Source: Polystyrenella longa (GTDB lineage: Bacteria; Planctomycetota; Planctomycetia; Planctomycetales; Planctomycetaceae). Taken from it: 64,000 nt of DNA. Below are positions 9,986-43,505 of the stretch, in pieces. The stretch covers positions 3,991,001 through 4,055,000 of the forward strand of contig NZ_CP036281.1 of NCBI RefSeq assembly GCF_007750395.1, written 5' to 3'. Every line of letters begins with the position of its first letter. Position 1 is the first letter of the stretch. The notes under the pieces were generated by a model. The model did not search any database. It worked only from the letters and a program-made list of their open reading frames with translations, and was not told where the DNA came from. The translations under genes were made by a program, and so were the position numbers.

Positions 9986-10325
9986 ATGCTTACTTTCAGA
10001 AATAAGTTCAGGTGAGAGACTGTGCGTGGAGAGAATCCGTAGATTTCTTCTACAGCGGGTTTCTTTTAACGGAAGGGGACTTTGGAAAACAACCGGTACC
10101 GAAAGGATATCAGAGGAGTTCAAATTTTTTTCATAGAGGGTGCCTAGGGATTAAGCACCAAGTTCAATCTGCCAGCATCTTTCGGTCAATTGATCGCATT
10201 CACGGACTGTTAAATTCGATCTGGCTTGTCGAGGTGCTGGTCGGGATGATAACCTGCGTATTCGAATTTCGAAGGGCTGCTGAAATGACCGCCCTTGCTA
10301 CTATTATCTTCAAGGTACTGAACTG
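9986..10325. other. Divergent intergenic region galE/bioB
   Basis: 340 bases between divergent starts. No BirA-type operator or riboswitch-like fold could be picked out by eye. An open frame on the plus strand here lacks homology and coding bias. Confidence 0.45.
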
Positions 10326-11360
10326 ATGACCGTCTCCCCTTCAATTGCTTCCGCTTCTCGCTGGCACGAAATGGCTGGCCGGGTTCTGAACGGAGAACAA
10401 CTCAGCCGCGAGGAAGGTTTAGCCATCCTGCAGGCTCCGGACAACGAGCTCCTGAATCTACTGGCTGCTGCTTACGAAATCCGACAGCGACATTTTGGAA
10501 ATCAGGTACAGCTGTACTATTTGAAGAACGCCAAAAGTGGCCTCTGCCCGGAAGACTGCGGATATTGTTCCCAATCCAAAGTTTCTGACGCCGCGATCGA
10601 CAAATACGTTTTTCTCAACGAGGAAAAACTGATCGCCGGTGCTAAGCAGGCGGCGGAATCCCAGGCGAGGACATACTGCATTGTCGCCAGCGGACGTGGC
10701 CCCACCAACCGCGAAGTGACCCACGTCGCGAACGTCGTTCGCAAAATCAAAGACGAATACGGCCTTCACATCTGCTGCTGCCTCGGATTGCTCAAACCGG
10801 AACAAGCCCTGGAACTTAAAGAAGCAGGCGTCGACCGGATCAATCACAATCTGAACACAAGTCGCAGTCATTACGACGATATCTGCTCGACCCACACCTA
10901 TCAGGACCGGATCGACACTCTCAAAGTCAGTCGCGACGCCGGTTTAGAACTGTGCAGTGGCCTGATCATTGGTATGGGTGAATCACCGGAAGACCTCGTC
11001 GACGTTGCCTGCGAACTGCGGGAGCTCAAAGTCGAATCCCTCCCGGTTAACTTCCTGAACTCGATCGATGGCACTCCGCTGGAAGATCAACACGATCTTG
11101 ACCCCCGTTTTTGCCTCAAAGCACTCTGCCTGATCCGAATGATCAATCCCGCTACCGAAATCCGAGTGGCTGGTGGACGCGAAATTAACCTGCGTTCCAT
11201 GCAGGCGATGAGCCTCTACCCGGCGAATTCCATGTTTGTCAGCGACTACCTGACGACATCCGGACAAACGAAAGAGGAAGATTTCGCCATGGTCGAAGAT
11301 CTTGGCTTCGAAATCGTCCTGATGGGTCACGAACACCAGGAAGAGGCGACCGCGAATTAG
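10326..11360 (+). CDS. bioB: Biotin synthase
   Basis: 344 residues, usual length. A radical-SAM enzyme inserting sulfur into dethiobiotin, the last step of biotin synthesis. The radical-SAM cluster motif is CPEDCGYC with Cys74, Cys78 and Cys81. Other BioB hallmarks: YYLKNAKSGLC before it, NHNLNTS, CSGLIIGMGE, and NFLNSIDGTPL. The second cluster's ligands (Cys in GLHICCCLG, and Arg in IRVAGGRE) are present. Followed by a terminator, then pyruvate carboxylase and a biotin ligase: a functional biotin neighbourhood even though other bio genes are absent here. Confidence 0.97.
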   Translation: MTVSPSIASASRWHEMAGRVLNGEQLSREEGLAILQAPDNELLNLLAAAYEIRQRHFGNQVQLYYLKNAKSGLCPEDCGYCSQSKVSDAAIDKYVFLNEEKLIAGAKQAAESQARTYCIVASGRGPTNREVTHVANVVRKIKDEYGLHICCCLGLLKPEQALELKEAGVDRINHNLNTSRSHYDDICSTHTYQDRIDTLKVSRDAGLELCSGLIIGMGESPEDLVDVACELRELKVESLPVNFLNSIDGTPLEDQHDLDPRFCLKALCLIRMINPATEIRVAGGREINLRSMQAMSLYPANSMFVSDYLTTSGQTKEEDFAMVEDLGFEIVLMGHEHQEEATAN

Positions 11361-11694
11361 TCACTTTAGCGGCAAATCAGCCAGTCTTCCCTGCACATGA
11401 GTCTATTTCCGACGTGCATGGGACGAATCGATTCTGCGGAAAAGGGAGCGATTCCGCCGTTTTTTGACCTTGCACTCGCTCCAATGTCGCCAGTCAATTG
11501 CGACTGAACCCCGGATGATAGTATTCTGTGACCTGCGACCCGGTACGTACTTCGTCCGGAAAGTGAGTCACCGTCACTTTCTACATCGAGACAACTGATC
11601 GAACGACCACGGTGCGTCACTGAGACGAACCGGACATCGCTCGATCATGCTATCTTCATCAACTTCTAGCGAATGGAAGATTTTCTCTACCACA
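11361..11694. other. Intergenic region bioB/pyc
   Basis: 334 bases holding the bioB terminator (11436-11465) and presumably the pyc promoter. Nothing else recognised. Confidence 0.5.
11436..11465 (+). terminator. Intrinsic terminator after bioB
   Basis: GCGGAA (11436-11441) pairs with TTCCGC (11452-11457) around a 10-base loop, followed by CGTTTTTT. It separates bioB transcription from pyc. Confidence 0.75.
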
Positions 11695-14600
11695 ATGAAC
11701 GTTAAACCGATCAAAAAGCTGCTGGTTGCCAACCGAAGTGAAATTGCCATTCGTATCATGCGGACTGCTACCGAACTTGATATCAATACGGTGGGCATCT
11801 ACAGCTATGAAGATCGATTCGCTCTGCATCGATTTAAAGCGGATGAAGCGTATCAGGTCGGGAAAAAAGGGGAACCGATTCGGGCGTATCTCGATATTCC
11901 CGGGATCATCAAAGTCGCCAAAGCATGCAAAGTCGACGCGATTCACCCTGGTTACGGTTTCCTGTCAGAAAACCCTGAGTTCGCCAAAGCCTGTGAAGAA
12001 GCCGGTATCCTGTTTGTCGGACCGACGGTTGACACCCTGATTCGGCTCGGTGACAAAACCCAGGCCCGACTTATTGCAGAAAACGCCAAAGTCCCCGTCC
12101 TGGGTGGTTCCAGCGCCGCAATCAAGAGCGTCGAAGAGGGAATGAAAACCGCAGAAGACCTCGGTTATCCGATCATCCTGAAAGCGGCCCACGGTGGCGG
12201 TGGCCGGGGAATGCGTGTCGTTAAGAAAGCAGAAGAATTCAAAGAAAACTTTGAATCAGCCCAAAGCGAATCGCTGTCCGCATTTGGCAGCCCCGATATC
12301 TTCGTTGAAAAATTCATCACGGCCGCCCGGCACATTGAAGTTCAATTATTAGGTGACCATCACGGCAACCTGGTCCATCTGTACGAGCGAGATTGCTCCG
12401 TACAACGTCGGCATCAGAAGGTCGTCGAAATCGCGCCCGCTCCGAACTTGAAAACTGAAGTTCGCGAAGCCCTTTGCCAGGCAGCACTCAAAATCGGCGA
12501 ACAGGTTTCTTACAAATGTGCCGGTACTGTTGAATTCCTCGTTGATGCCGACACGAACAAATTCTACTTCATCGAAGTGAATCCACGTATCCAGGTCGAA
12601 CATACCGTTACTGAAGAAGTAACGGGGACGGACATCGTCAAAACCCAGATCCTCGTGACTCAAGGTTATCCACTTGCCGATCCGGAAATCGACCTTGGCG
12701 ATCAGTCGCAGATCAGAACCATGGGATTTGCACTTCAATGTCGACTGACGACTGAGGATCCTGAAAACGGATTCATGCCCGACTATGGCCGTCTCGTCCA
12801 TTATCGAGCCGCAAATGGTATGGGAGTCCGGCTCGATGCAGGTAGTGCCTTCAGTGGCGCTGTAGTTGCTCCTTATTACGACTCGATGCTGGTGAAAGTC
12901 ACTGCCCGAGGAAAACGGTTCGTCGATGCCATTCGCAAGATGGATCGAGCATTACGCGAGTTCCGAATCCGTGGTGTGAAGACCAACATTCCCTTCCTGA
13001 TGAAATTGATGCATCACCCCACTTTCGTCGAGGGTTTATGCACAACCAGGTTCATCGATCAAACCCCGGAACTGCTCGTCTTCAAACCGCGTAAAGACCG
13101 GGCAACCAAATTATTGACTTATCTCGCCGAGGTAATCATTAACGAAAATGCATTGGTCAAAGGTCGGCCAAAAGCGTTAAGAAATGAACCAGCTCCGACT
13201 CCAGAAGTTGATATCACAGCCCCTCTTCCTAAAGGAACACGCGACGTCTTCCTGGAGCTGGGTCCCGAGAAATTCAGCCAGTGGATTCTGGATCAGAAAC
13301 GTCTGCTGATCACCGACACCACGATGCGAGATGCACACCAATCACTACTGGCGACACGAGTTCGTACCTACGACCTCAACCAGATCGCGAGCGCTTACGC
13401 TTATAACTGCCCGAATTTCTTCTCTCTCGAAATGTGGGGCGGTGCCACGTTCGATACCACGATGCGATTCCTTAAAGAATCTCCTTGGGATCGATTGACC
13501 GAACTGCGCGATAAAGTTCCAAACATCCTGTTCCAGATGCTGCTGCGAGCATCGAATGCTGTGGGATACACAAACTACCCGGACAATGTCGTTCAACTGT
13601 TTGTGAAAGAAGCCGCCTCTGCGGGAATTGATGTCTTCCGTGTTTTCGATGCCCTGAACTGGGTACCGAACATGAAAGTCGCCATGGAAGCAGTTCGCGA
13701 TTCGGGTGCTATCTGCGAAGCTTCCATCTGTTACACCGGTGACATTCTCGATCCAAAGCGAACTAAATACGATCTCAAGTATTACGTTAAATTGGCTCGC
13801 GAACTGGAAAATATGGGTGCCAACATCCTGGCGATTAAGGATATGGCCGGCCTCTGTAAACCTGACGCCGTCGAGATTCTCGTCAAAACGTTGAAGCAGG
13901 AAGTCGGAATTCCGATTCACTTCCACACGCACGACACCGCCGGCATTCAGGCCGCGTCCATTTTACGTGCAACAGAGGCAAACCTGGACATTGCCGATGC
14001 GGCGATGGCTCCCCTTTCCGGTGGAACGTCGCAGGTCAACCTGAACACGCTATGTGAATCACTCCGGTTCCACGATCGCAACACAGAACTTCAGACCGAA
14101 GCGATTGACGAAATCGCGGATTACTGGCGTTCCGCACGCGAGTTTTATTCTCCCTTCGAAAGCGCTGTCCTTCCCGCGACAGCCGACCTATACGACCACG
14201 AAATGCCCGGCGGCCAGTACACCAACCTGTACCAGCAAGCCCGGGCACTGGGACTTGCTGATCAATGGGCGAAAGTCTGCCGAGTATACGCCGGCGTTAA
14301 CCGTCTCTTCGGAGATATCGTGAAGGTCACTCCCACCTCCAAAGCGGTTGGGGACATGGCCCTCTTCATGGTTGCCAATAACATCACCAATGACGATGTC
14401 CTGAATGGTGAGAAAGAACTTTCCTACCCGCAATCGGTCATCGACTTGATCGGTGGTGGTATGGGACAACCTCCGGGAGGTTTCCCCAAGGATGTGATGA
14501 AACGAATCCTCAAAGGAGAGGAAGGTTTCACAGGCCGTCCAGGAGAAACGTTGGAACCAGCTGACTTCGGTAAAGCGGCCGAAGAAGTCGAGAAATTTCT

Positions 14601-40260: not shown

Positions 40261-41099
40261 CGATCTCTCCTCAAGATTATAAAAACAACTGATTTTAACT
40301 GATACAAGATTTATCCATCTGCAGAGGGCAAACCCCACGCAGGATGGTCTCCGGGCCTTCCCGGAATATGTATTTCGGGTTGATATAGCAACCAAGCGAA
40401 CATCGTGCCGATCACTTCGAAAATCATATCTCGTTGATATCGAATACTTTACAAACATGACCTTATTCAGCAATCTGCCAACTTAGTCAGTTCATTTCAG
40501 GACCGGCTCGTGATGTCTGCCATTATGACAGAGTTACATCACATGAGAAGACTGCCACAGGTAGCTTCTGAAGAATTCCCCGAGATATCCGAAACTCTCC
40601 CGGCGAAACGCTCGCGATGACATTCCAGGCACCATCCACACTATTGTCGAGGTATTGAAACGAACAGCCTTCGTTTATATGATCAATCCAGTTAATTCAT
40701 CAATTGATAATTCAACAACTGTCTGTGACTCACGAAGGTTGATGTTTGAACCTACTGCGAAGCAAACGCTTTTGCGATCTCAGAAGTCAAACATCGTCCC
40801 ACCAAATCCTTCCCCCCTCGGCACAATTCAACCCGCTTGAACACATTCAAGCTCCCCCTGCCTTATATTCCTGCCCTGCACTCCGGGCTAATCAGACCCA
40901 CCTGTTCCTGCTGTCCGATTAACAATTGGAAAATTCATCCCGCCAACTTACGCGACTTCCCTGCACGCGCGGTATTCCCGTAATTGGAACAGCAGTTCCT
41001 ACCCTAATCTAATACATCACACCTCTTTCCATAACCGATCGACAGCACTGCTGTTCTGGGCTGCGCGATGGTTCCTGAACTGAAGAATGGAGACACTCT
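40261..41099. other. Divergent intergenic region groES/propeller gene
   Basis: 839 bases. It must hold the groES promoter. No TTAGCACTC-N9-GAGTGCTAA element was found. A short palindrome, ACAGCA-C-TGCTGT (41042-41054), lies about 45 bases before the next gene. Short open frames here show no coding character. Confidence 0.5.
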
Positions 41100-43505
41100 G
41101 TGAAGCGGCATTCTCTTAACAAAGGCTTCAGCTGGCTGGTGCTGGCTGGACTCGTGATCGGCACAACCCTGGCGACGATTGAACCACTTCAGGCTAAACC
41201 GCCAATACGCGGCACGGGTAAAGGCGAAGTGGTAGGCGAGTACCTGCAACAGGTCGCCGTGCAGTACACCAAAGAGGAAGGACTCCCCTCAAAAGACATT
41301 CTTTGCCTCGCTGCGGACAATGGAATTTTTGCTGGAACGGCAAAAGGCATTGCCCAGTTCGAAGGTTCCACTTGGAAAACCGTACTGAAAACCTCCTCGC
41401 CCGTCGTCGCACTGACCACTCTCGGTGATACCGTGTTCTACGCGACGCAAACGGAGATAGGCCAACTGGGCGTAGACGATAAAGCAATCGCCACCATCCG
41501 CGACGGAGTCACGATCACTGAAATGCTTCTGACCCCGGAAGGGCTTTACATCAGCAGCAACGAAGGTCTCGATCTCCTTCCCAACGGTTCCTCAGAACAA
41601 GTGGAAGTCAAAGCGTTCAACGATATTCTTCCACCAGAAACGACTGTCAACCAACTTGCCTACTCGGAAGGTCGAGGATTGGCGATTGCGTCTACCAACG
41701 GACTTTATCTGTACTCCGCAAAAGACAACCAGGCCGCACGAATTCACGCAGCCACGGCAGCAGGAGGATGGTTCCTCGCTGATGTCCGGGGAGTTGGATT
41801 CGATTCTCAAGGCCAGCTGCGCGTTGCCGCTCCTCAGGGAATCGCTTTTGAAACTCAAGAAGGCTGGGACTTACTGACTGGGTCCGAAGGACTTCCCTAC
41901 AACGACTTCACCAAACTGGCAGTCGGTTCCAAAGACGACGTCTGGTACGCAACCCACATCGGAGCCGTGCATCGATACGACGACATCTGGGAATATCGTC
42001 AGGGACGCCGCTGGATCCTAGATGACGACATTCGCGACGTCGTGGTGACTCCTAACGGTTACTCCTGGTTTGCAACCGCCAAAGGAGTCAGTTGCATCAA
42101 GCTTGTTCCGATGACGCTGCGTGAAAAAGCAGACTTCTTTAACGCGGAGATCGAAAAATATCACTTGCGAACGGAATACGGTTATGTTGATTCGGTCCGC
42201 ATGAAAGAACCGGGCGTTAAGATTGTCGACAACCAGAAACACGACAGCGACAACGACGGACTCTGGACAAGCATGTACGGTGCGGCTCATGCTTTTGAAT
42301 ACGCCGTGACCAAAACACCAGAATCCAAAGCACGAGCAAATAAAGCATTCCGAGCGATCGGCTTTCTGAGTGAAGTCCCCCAGGGAGGCAAACATTCCCC
42401 TCCCTTTGGTTTCCCCGCACGCACCATTCTCCCCACTTCCGGCCGCAATCCGAACGACCATGACTCAGTCGAACATGATAAAGAGAAACGAGAAAAGGAC
42501 CCGGACCACCTTTGGAAAGTTCTCGATCCCCGCTGGCCTGTCAGTGCAGATGGCCAATGGTACTGGAAAACCGATACCAGTTCTGACGAACTCGACGGCC
42601 ACTATTTCTTCTACGGAGCGTACTACGACCTGGTCGCTGAAACTGAAGAAGAGAAATCTTACTGCCGTGAAGTTGTCGACCGTGTCTCGACTCACCTGAT
42701 CGAGCATGATTACGCCCTTGTCGACCACGATGGCCAACCGACCCGCTGGGGCCAGTTCGGTCCGCACATGATTAACACGGACAAAATGACTGACCTGCGT
42801 GGTCTTAATGCCATCAGCCTGCTGGCTTACATCAAAACGGCTTATCATGTGACTGGCGATCCGAAATACCAGGAGCATTACGAAAAGCTGCTCTACGAGC
42901 ACGACTACTTCACTAACGTGCTCCATCCTAAATGGCAGAACGGCCCTGGAACCGGTAACCAGTCCGACGATGAAATGGCCTTCATGTGTTACTACAACCT
43001 GTTCCAGTACGAAACCGATCCAAAACTGATTAAACAGTACACCCGGTCAATGAATCGTTACTTCCTGCAGGAACAGTACGAGTTGTGCCCCCTGTTCAAC
43101 TTCATTTATGCGTTGAACTATTACTCAACCCGCTTCTACTGGCCCGAGGCCATCGGTGACGAAATCATTCCTGAAGCGATTGATTCGCTGAAACGGTATC
43201 CGCTGGATCGCTTCCGCTGGAGCATGAAGAACAGTCACCGACTCGACATGGTTCACGTCCAGAAGCACGTCATCCGACAACGAAACCGAGGCTATCTCTA
43301 CAATGGGTATGCGTTGCCAATTGACGAACGATTTGTAGAGCACTGGAATCACGATCCGTGGCGTATGGATGTCCATGGTAATGGAACAGAACTGGCCGAT
43401 GGCGCATCGTTCCTGCTCCCCTATTACATGGGCGTTTATCATGGGTATGTAATCGAAGACCCCAGTTCCGCCAGCCCTACCAGCGGAAGTGCGTCGGAAG
43501 AGTAA
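41100..43505 (+). CDS. Secreted protein: beta-propeller plus helical-barrel domain
   Basis: 801 residues; GTG start with GGAG 8 bases upstream. Signal peptide (1-32, cleavage after LQA). Residues about 45-335 contain repeated blades of the two-component-regulator-propeller kind: GTAKGIAQFEG, SSNEGLDLLP, ASTNGLYLYS, AAPQGIAFET, and WYATHIGAVHRYDD. Residues 345-770 are helical with HDSDNDGLWTSMYGAAHAFEYA, DELDGHYFFYGAYYDLVA, RWGQFGP, LRGLNAISLLAYIKTAYHVTG and DDEMAFMCYYNLFQYE, resembling an (alpha/alpha)6 barrel of glycoside hydrolases or epimerases, with several Asp/Glu/His clusters. Enzyme activity is inferred only. No histidine kinase follows the propeller. Confidence 0.85.
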   Translation: MKRHSLNKGFSWLVLAGLVIGTTLATIEPLQAKPPIRGTGKGEVVGEYLQQVAVQYTKEEGLPSKDILCLAADNGIFAGTAKGIAQFEGSTWKTVLKTSSPVVALTTLGDTVFYATQTEIGQLGVDDKAIATIRDGVTITEMLLTPEGLYISSNEGLDLLPNGSSEQVEVKAFNDILPPETTVNQLAYSEGRGLAIASTNGLYLYSAKDNQAARIHAATAAGGWFLADVRGVGFDSQGQLRVAAPQGIAFETQEGWDLLTGSEGLPYNDFTKLAVGSKDDVWYATHIGAVHRYDDIWEYRQGRRWILDDDIRDVVVTPNGYSWFATAKGVSCIKLVPMTLREKADFFNAEIEKYHLRTEYGYVDSVRMKEPGVKIVDNQKHDSDNDGLWTSMYGAAHAFEYAVTKTPESKARANKAFRAIGFLSEVPQGGKHSPPFGFPARTILPTSGRNPNDHDSVEHDKEKREKDPDHLWKVLDPRWPVSADGQWYWKTDTSSDELDGHYFFYGAYYDLVAETEEEKSYCREVVDRVSTHLIEHDYALVDHDGQPTRWGQFGPHMINTDKMTDLRGLNAISLLAYIKTAYHVTGDPKYQEHYEKLLYEHDYFTNVLHPKWQNGPGTGNQSDDEMAFMCYYNLFQYETDPKLIKQYTRSMNRYFLQEQYELCPLFNFIYALNYYSTRFYWPEAIGDEIIPEAIDSLKRYPLDRFRWSMKNSHRLDMVHVQKHVIRQRNRGYLYNGYALPIDERFVEHWNHDPWRMDVHGNGTELADGASFLLPYYMGVYHGYVIEDPSSASPTSGSASEE

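Follow-up and report, generated by a model that had tools for sequence, protein, structure and literature searches.

The gene at positions 41100–43505 of the window (the whole stretch of Polystyrenella longa DNA that was analysed, 64,000 nucleotides in length, at 3,991,001–4,055,000 of a single 6.1 Mb contig) encodes an 801-residue protein in which a β-propeller (residues ~48–338) is followed by a twelve-helix C-terminal domain (residues 339–790). From its sequence and its predicted structure, this propeller-barrel protein is probably an exported (periplasmic or extracellular), glycan-active (α/α)6-barrel enzyme, most likely a glycoside hydrolase, of which the propeller is an integral part. 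The barrel represents a large family that is absent from Pfam and NCBIfam. The gene and its main parts are as follows.

41100–43505, plus strand: whole gene, 801 amino acids (open reading frame with the stop codon included, supported by homologs)
41100–41198, plus strand: signal-peptide-like N terminus, residues 1–33, MKRHSLNKGFSWLVLAGLVIGTTLATIEPLQAK (from sequence, hydropathy, and low pLDDT at residues 1–8 and 26–38)
41241–42113, plus strand: seven-bladed β-propeller of the two-component-sensor type, residues 48–338 (from the model, a profile match, and Foldseek)
42114–43469, plus strand: (α/α)6-barrel domain, residues 339–790 (from the model and fold matches; outside Pfam and NCBIfam)

The reading frame starts with a GTG codon, with GGAG at 41089–41092, 7 nt upstream, and is a real gene, being conserved within the genus (one relative being 75% identical) and in 18 relatives in a single alignment; a scan of genome contigs found relatives encoded at no fewer than 558 further loci. 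The hydrophobic peak of the protein lies at residues 13–27 on the Kyte-Doolittle scale, and the putative signal cleavage site was placed by reading rather than by a predictor. No transmembrane segment was found after residue 40, where every later 19-residue window scores at most 1.19 on the same scale, and the protein consequently has no membrane anchor. Scans against Pfam and NCBIfam gave no match to HisKA or HATPase in the 801 residues; the protein thus has neither the transmembrane segment nor the histidine kinase that define a hybrid two-component system. The first-pass annotation had described the product as secreted and as lacking a kinase, and both descriptions agree with these observations, the former as a prediction from the signal-peptide-like start. 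The full-length AlphaFold2 model (pLDDT 91.5, pTM 0.90, from a 63-sequence alignment) suggests, by its high pTM, that the two domains may be held in a fixed arrangement.

The propeller has seven blades in the model, their number and limits having been read by eye from the list of strands. Among solved structures, the family profile finds the sensor propellers 4a2l (BT4663; E = 7.7e-27), 3v9f (E = 1.1e-25), and 3ott (E = 1.5e-15), and structure comparison of the full-length model with seven-bladed propellers gave Z scores of 27–28. The 801-residue protein itself scores 11.2 bits against Reg_prop, under the curated cut-off of 20.4, and four homologs (L042, L082, L116, and L014) exceed this cut-off; it is through the sequence relation of the family profile that the domain belongs with the Reg_prop propellers of hybrid two-component (HTCS) sensors, as the earlier assignment to the sensor type had proposed. 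The sensors BT4663, BT3049, and BT4673, which share this sequence-related seven-bladed propeller and provide the best Foldseek match of the full model, have two propellers where the propeller-barrel protein has one with a helical barrel instead, and the latter is without their Y_Y_Y domain, membrane anchor, and kinase. Propellers of the sensor type outside a kinase are also found in PorZ of type IX secretion (5m11 in Foldseek; PMC5121618), although PorZ carries a second propeller and ends in a T9SS C-terminal domain, and has no barrel.

Conservation is unevenly spread over the blades and is concentrated in the half of the propeller that adjoins the barrel in sequence.

41760–42113, plus strand: blades 5–7, conserved half of the propeller, approximately residues 221–338 (from alignment conservation)

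The mean top-residue frequency is 0.22 in blades 2–3 (with 29–36% gaps), 0.39–0.45 in blades 1 and 4, and 0.60–0.70 in blades 5–7, compared with 0.57–0.78 in the barrel, so that the conservation of blades 5–7 almost equals that of the barrel. Arg300, Gly302, Trp305, and the Gly-Leu-Pro stretch at 264–266, all in blades 5–7, are at least 95% conserved.

The C-terminal domain was modelled by itself, since unrelated propellers (WD40 and others) fill the fold search with the full-length model, and was predicted with a pLDDT of 91.8 and a pTM of 0.92. Its twelve main helices, in domain numbering (to which 334 is added to obtain the protein residue), span 6–21, 52–70, 73–91, 161–177, 182–201, 230–251, 254–266, 287–303, 307–327, 330–343, 355–365, and 435–446. 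This succession of twelve helices, together with weak matches over the full length of the domain, identifies an (α/α)6-like barrel at the level of fold only. All 17 Foldseek matches at E ≤ 0.001 are described as carbohydrate enzymes (cellobiose or glucose 2-epimerases, GH76, and GH9), with cellobiose 2-epimerase 7d5g the best of them (E = 1.5e-5). The top VIA-align match was the GH76 enzyme BT2949 (4v1s; Z = 18.3, r.m.s. deviation 4.3, 308 aligned residues, 8% identity), followed by many further (α/α)6 enzymes at Z scores of 15–16. An exported, uncharacterised protein, YPO2471 (PDB 7tem), was also near the top, at Z = 17.1. Rows less than 1 Z apart count as ties, and for this reason no single family stands clearly above the others among the 50 VIA-align matches listed; Z scores of 14–18 at 6–14% identity are evidence of fold only, and helical folds can reach middling Z scores by chance. 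The structure prediction and fold searches nonetheless uphold the helical barrel expected by the first-pass annotation, whose limits for it (345–770) were close to those given here.

Searches of Pfam, NCBIfam, and PDB sequences with the 801-residue protein produced nothing above threshold, the barrel profile found nothing among PDB sequences at E ≤ 10, and neither the protein nor ten stand-alone or divergent relatives gave an above-threshold Pfam or NCBIfam match over the barrel. The only sub-threshold barrel match among the members searched was that of the distant relative L024 to GH127 (PF07944; E = 0.0058, 16.1 against 24.9 bits), a family for which the 801-residue protein itself gave no match. 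GH76 (PF03663) was not matched by the protein at E ≤ 10, where the filters drop most matches above 0.1, nor by the ten relatives at E ≤ 1; AGE (GlcNAc_2-epim, PF07221) and GH88/GH105 (PF07470) gave no match among the proteins scanned. With the wider barrel alignment, hhalign returned probabilities of 31% for GH127 (P = 5e-4, 141 columns), 3.7% for GH76, 0.8% for AGE, and 0.2% for GH88, against comparison sets of only 2–11 sequences per family. Among the known families, hhalign gave no mutual detection except between GH127 and GH76 (84%). As the sets were small and the known families missed each other, the sequence evidence neither proves nor rules out deep kinship. The open-licence literature searched yielded no relevant report of a six-hairpin glycosidase fused to a propeller.

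Residue conservation was assessed over 104 barrels (63 close, 29 intermediate, and 12 stand-alone, with a few near-copies among them), and the following positions were located by the alignment and, for all but Arg441, by the helix boundaries of the model.

42249–42257, plus strand: Asp384-Asn385-Asp386, start of inner helix 2; invariant in propeller-bearing members, missing from most or all of the stand-alone barrels
42420–42422, plus strand: Arg441; present in every aligned barrel, stand-alone and BNR-tailed included
42585–42590, plus strand: Asp496-Glu497, start of inner helix 4; candidate catalytic acids
42969–42971, plus strand: Asp624, start of inner helix 8; candidate second acid

Asp496 is found in 104 of 104 barrels without a BNR tail. 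Glu497 is invariant in the propeller-bearing barrels (92 of 92) and is replaced by Gln in all 12 stand-alone barrels, so the vicinal pair is not universal; Asp624 occurs in 97% of propeller-bearing and 9 of the 12 stand-alone barrels. By the helix boundaries of the model, Asp384/Asp386, Asp496/Glu497, and Asp624 occupy the opening turns of inner helices 2, 4, and 8, and the motifs DxDND, SSDE, LNS, SDDE, PxFNF, and LPYYMG are situated at or near the N termini of the six inner helices. The cluster of acidic residues reported from the single sequence is accordingly a conserved feature of the homologs. Neither outcome that the first-pass annotation had named as refuting its reading, a different fold or a lack of conserved residues, was therefore observed. 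None of the Cys residues of the 801-residue protein is conserved in the family, and the Cys common in homologs (column 398, 83%) is not a Cys here. Two relatives have the reversed order of a barrel followed by a BNR/sortilin-like propeller (L017:991–3357 and L024:979–3351), and these carry His-Asn at the position of Asp496-Glu497 while Arg441 is kept. The stand-alone barrels from phylum genomes (L119–L129) are mostly of 460–530 amino acids, several with a lipobox-like start. Beyond Asp384 and Asp386, the residues Arg357, Arg549, and Arg567 are likewise kept where a propeller is present and missing from most or all of the barrels that stand alone, and Arg714 and Asp716 are lost in about half or more of the latter. 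This loss in propeller-less barrels suggests that propeller and barrel may form a shared site.

The GH76 α-mannanases (BT2949, BT3782, and Aman6) resemble the propeller-barrel protein in the (α/α)6 barrel and, in sequence order, in a pair of adjacent acids with another Asp after it; they differ from it in lacking a propeller and the long insertion that it has ahead of helix 4. The proposed catalytic residues of BT2949 are Asp143-Glu144, with the nearby conserved Asp249 (PMC4321491), and the acids are similarly spaced, Asp496 and Asp624 being 128 residues apart compared with 106, a likeness that comes from sequence order rather than from superposition. The GH127/GH146 β-L-arabinofuranosidases also share the (α/α)6 barrel and provide the one profile link, a weak one. 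Catalysis in GH127 relies on a Zn-bound catalytic Cys, whereas the propeller-barrel protein has no family-conserved Cys.

The conserved acids at the starts of the inner helices probably line a central cleft, in which Asp496, with either Glu497 or Asp624, would perform the chemistry in a GH76-like placement of a vicinal pair and a further Asp. The propeller would be a fixed part of the enzyme, its conserved blades 5–7 helping to hold or select a polysaccharide chain; it is not expected to be a signalling module, because the protein has nothing able to pass a signal across the membrane. A more specific proposal, which is tentative and at present the less probable outcome, is that the protein belongs to a new family of glycoside hydrolases whose propeller once served a sensor and has since been taken into the enzyme, with blades 5–7 and Arg357, Asp384, Asp386, Arg549, and Arg567 making up a composite substrate site.

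Matches were obtained in 10 genomes when 40 relatives were searched, and in 131 of 392 phylum genomes at E ≤ 0.001, many of the latter being propeller-only. The 558 or more loci of the contig scan are from, among others, Planctomycetota, Hydrogenedentota, Verrucomicrobiota, Acidobacteriota, KSB1, Neomarinimicrobiota, Omnitrophota, and Nitrospirota (phylum names as given in the records), and a single actinomycete in culture, Spongiactinospora gelatinilytica; a phylum represented by one MAG is weakly supported, since MAG bins can be contaminated. In a quick tree, most of the stand-alone barrels fall to one side, with two changes, an arrangement made unsure by long branches. The relative G024, with a total of six matches, carries two propeller-barrel genes in tandem (L217:7744–10092 and 10135–12570).

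The gene is flanked by groES/groEL on one side and by a pyrF-like gene on the other, as named from reading of the sequence. Its single paralog in the same genome (C1:3240362–3242542, minus strand) is directly followed on the same strand by two sulfatase genes (locus L138, G000:C1:3237625–3242542); this proximity may be due to chance because the 6.1 Mb genome has approximately 43 sulfatase genes. Among 73 genes directly adjacent on the same strand in other genomes, the 25 Pfam families that occur most often include GH2 and BNR_2 (three each) and apiosidase and sulfatase (two each), compared with one BNR_2 and no GH2, apiosidase, or sulfatase among those listed for 73 distant genes, a plain tally of small counts. 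In one Neomarinimicrobiota locus (L070:699–11436), the propeller-barrel gene occurs together with genes for a GH84-like N-acetylglucosaminidase (PF07555) and a BNR protein and with transporter genes, read as symporter-like and receptor-like. The neighbouring genes give only weak glycan hints. The closest relatives share no neighbourhood, and the genes around them and in 80 wider loci were mostly unrelated, which leaves the neighbourhoods mostly uninformative as to the substrate.

The neighbourhoods also bear on whether the protein is a non-catalytic, exported glycan-binding or glycan-sensing protein, in which both domains bind and an unlinked partner carries the signal. The propellers of BT4663 bind disaccharides and PorZ provides a precedent for sensor-type propellers without a kinase (PMC5121618), but no conserved partner gene was seen around the relatives. 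Moreover, conservation in the protein is highest in the barrel, and the barrel acids are kept across nine labelled phyla, which fits catalysis better than mere binding and leaves this explanation unlikely.

It is also improbable that the protein is a polysaccharide lyase or a sugar epimerase with the same barrel rather than a hydrolase. The cellobiose 2-epimerases are the best Foldseek matches of the barrel, the polysaccharide lyase 5no8 is among the VIA-align matches (Z = 15.4), and some His residues are conserved (His532, His501, His583, and His781). The epimerases have, however, no profile link to the barrel, as the missing GlcNAc_2-epim match in the proteins scanned and the hhalign value below 1% attest, and inner helix 8 starts with SDDE, not with His. 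Epimerases of the cellobiose 2-epimerase type are, as far as is known, cytosolic, whereas the propeller-barrel protein looks exported. An enzyme acting on a non-sugar substrate is very unlikely: the barrel fold by itself does not fix the chemistry and terpene cyclases have a similar helical barrel (drimenyl diphosphate synthase chains at Z scores of 14.4–14.9), but these rank under GH76 and cover 259–265 residues compared with 308–315, and an exported protein whose propeller is akin to those of carbohydrate sensors is better suited to glycans.

If the propeller-barrel protein is indeed an exported glycan-active enzyme, it would stand for a large and so far uncharacterised family of such enzymes across Planctomycetota, Hydrogenedentota, Verrucomicrobiota, and Acidobacteriota, phyla that include several known degraders of complex polysaccharides. 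A sensor propeller would then have been reused as an enzyme module, and hundreds of unannotated proteins would acquire a testable function.
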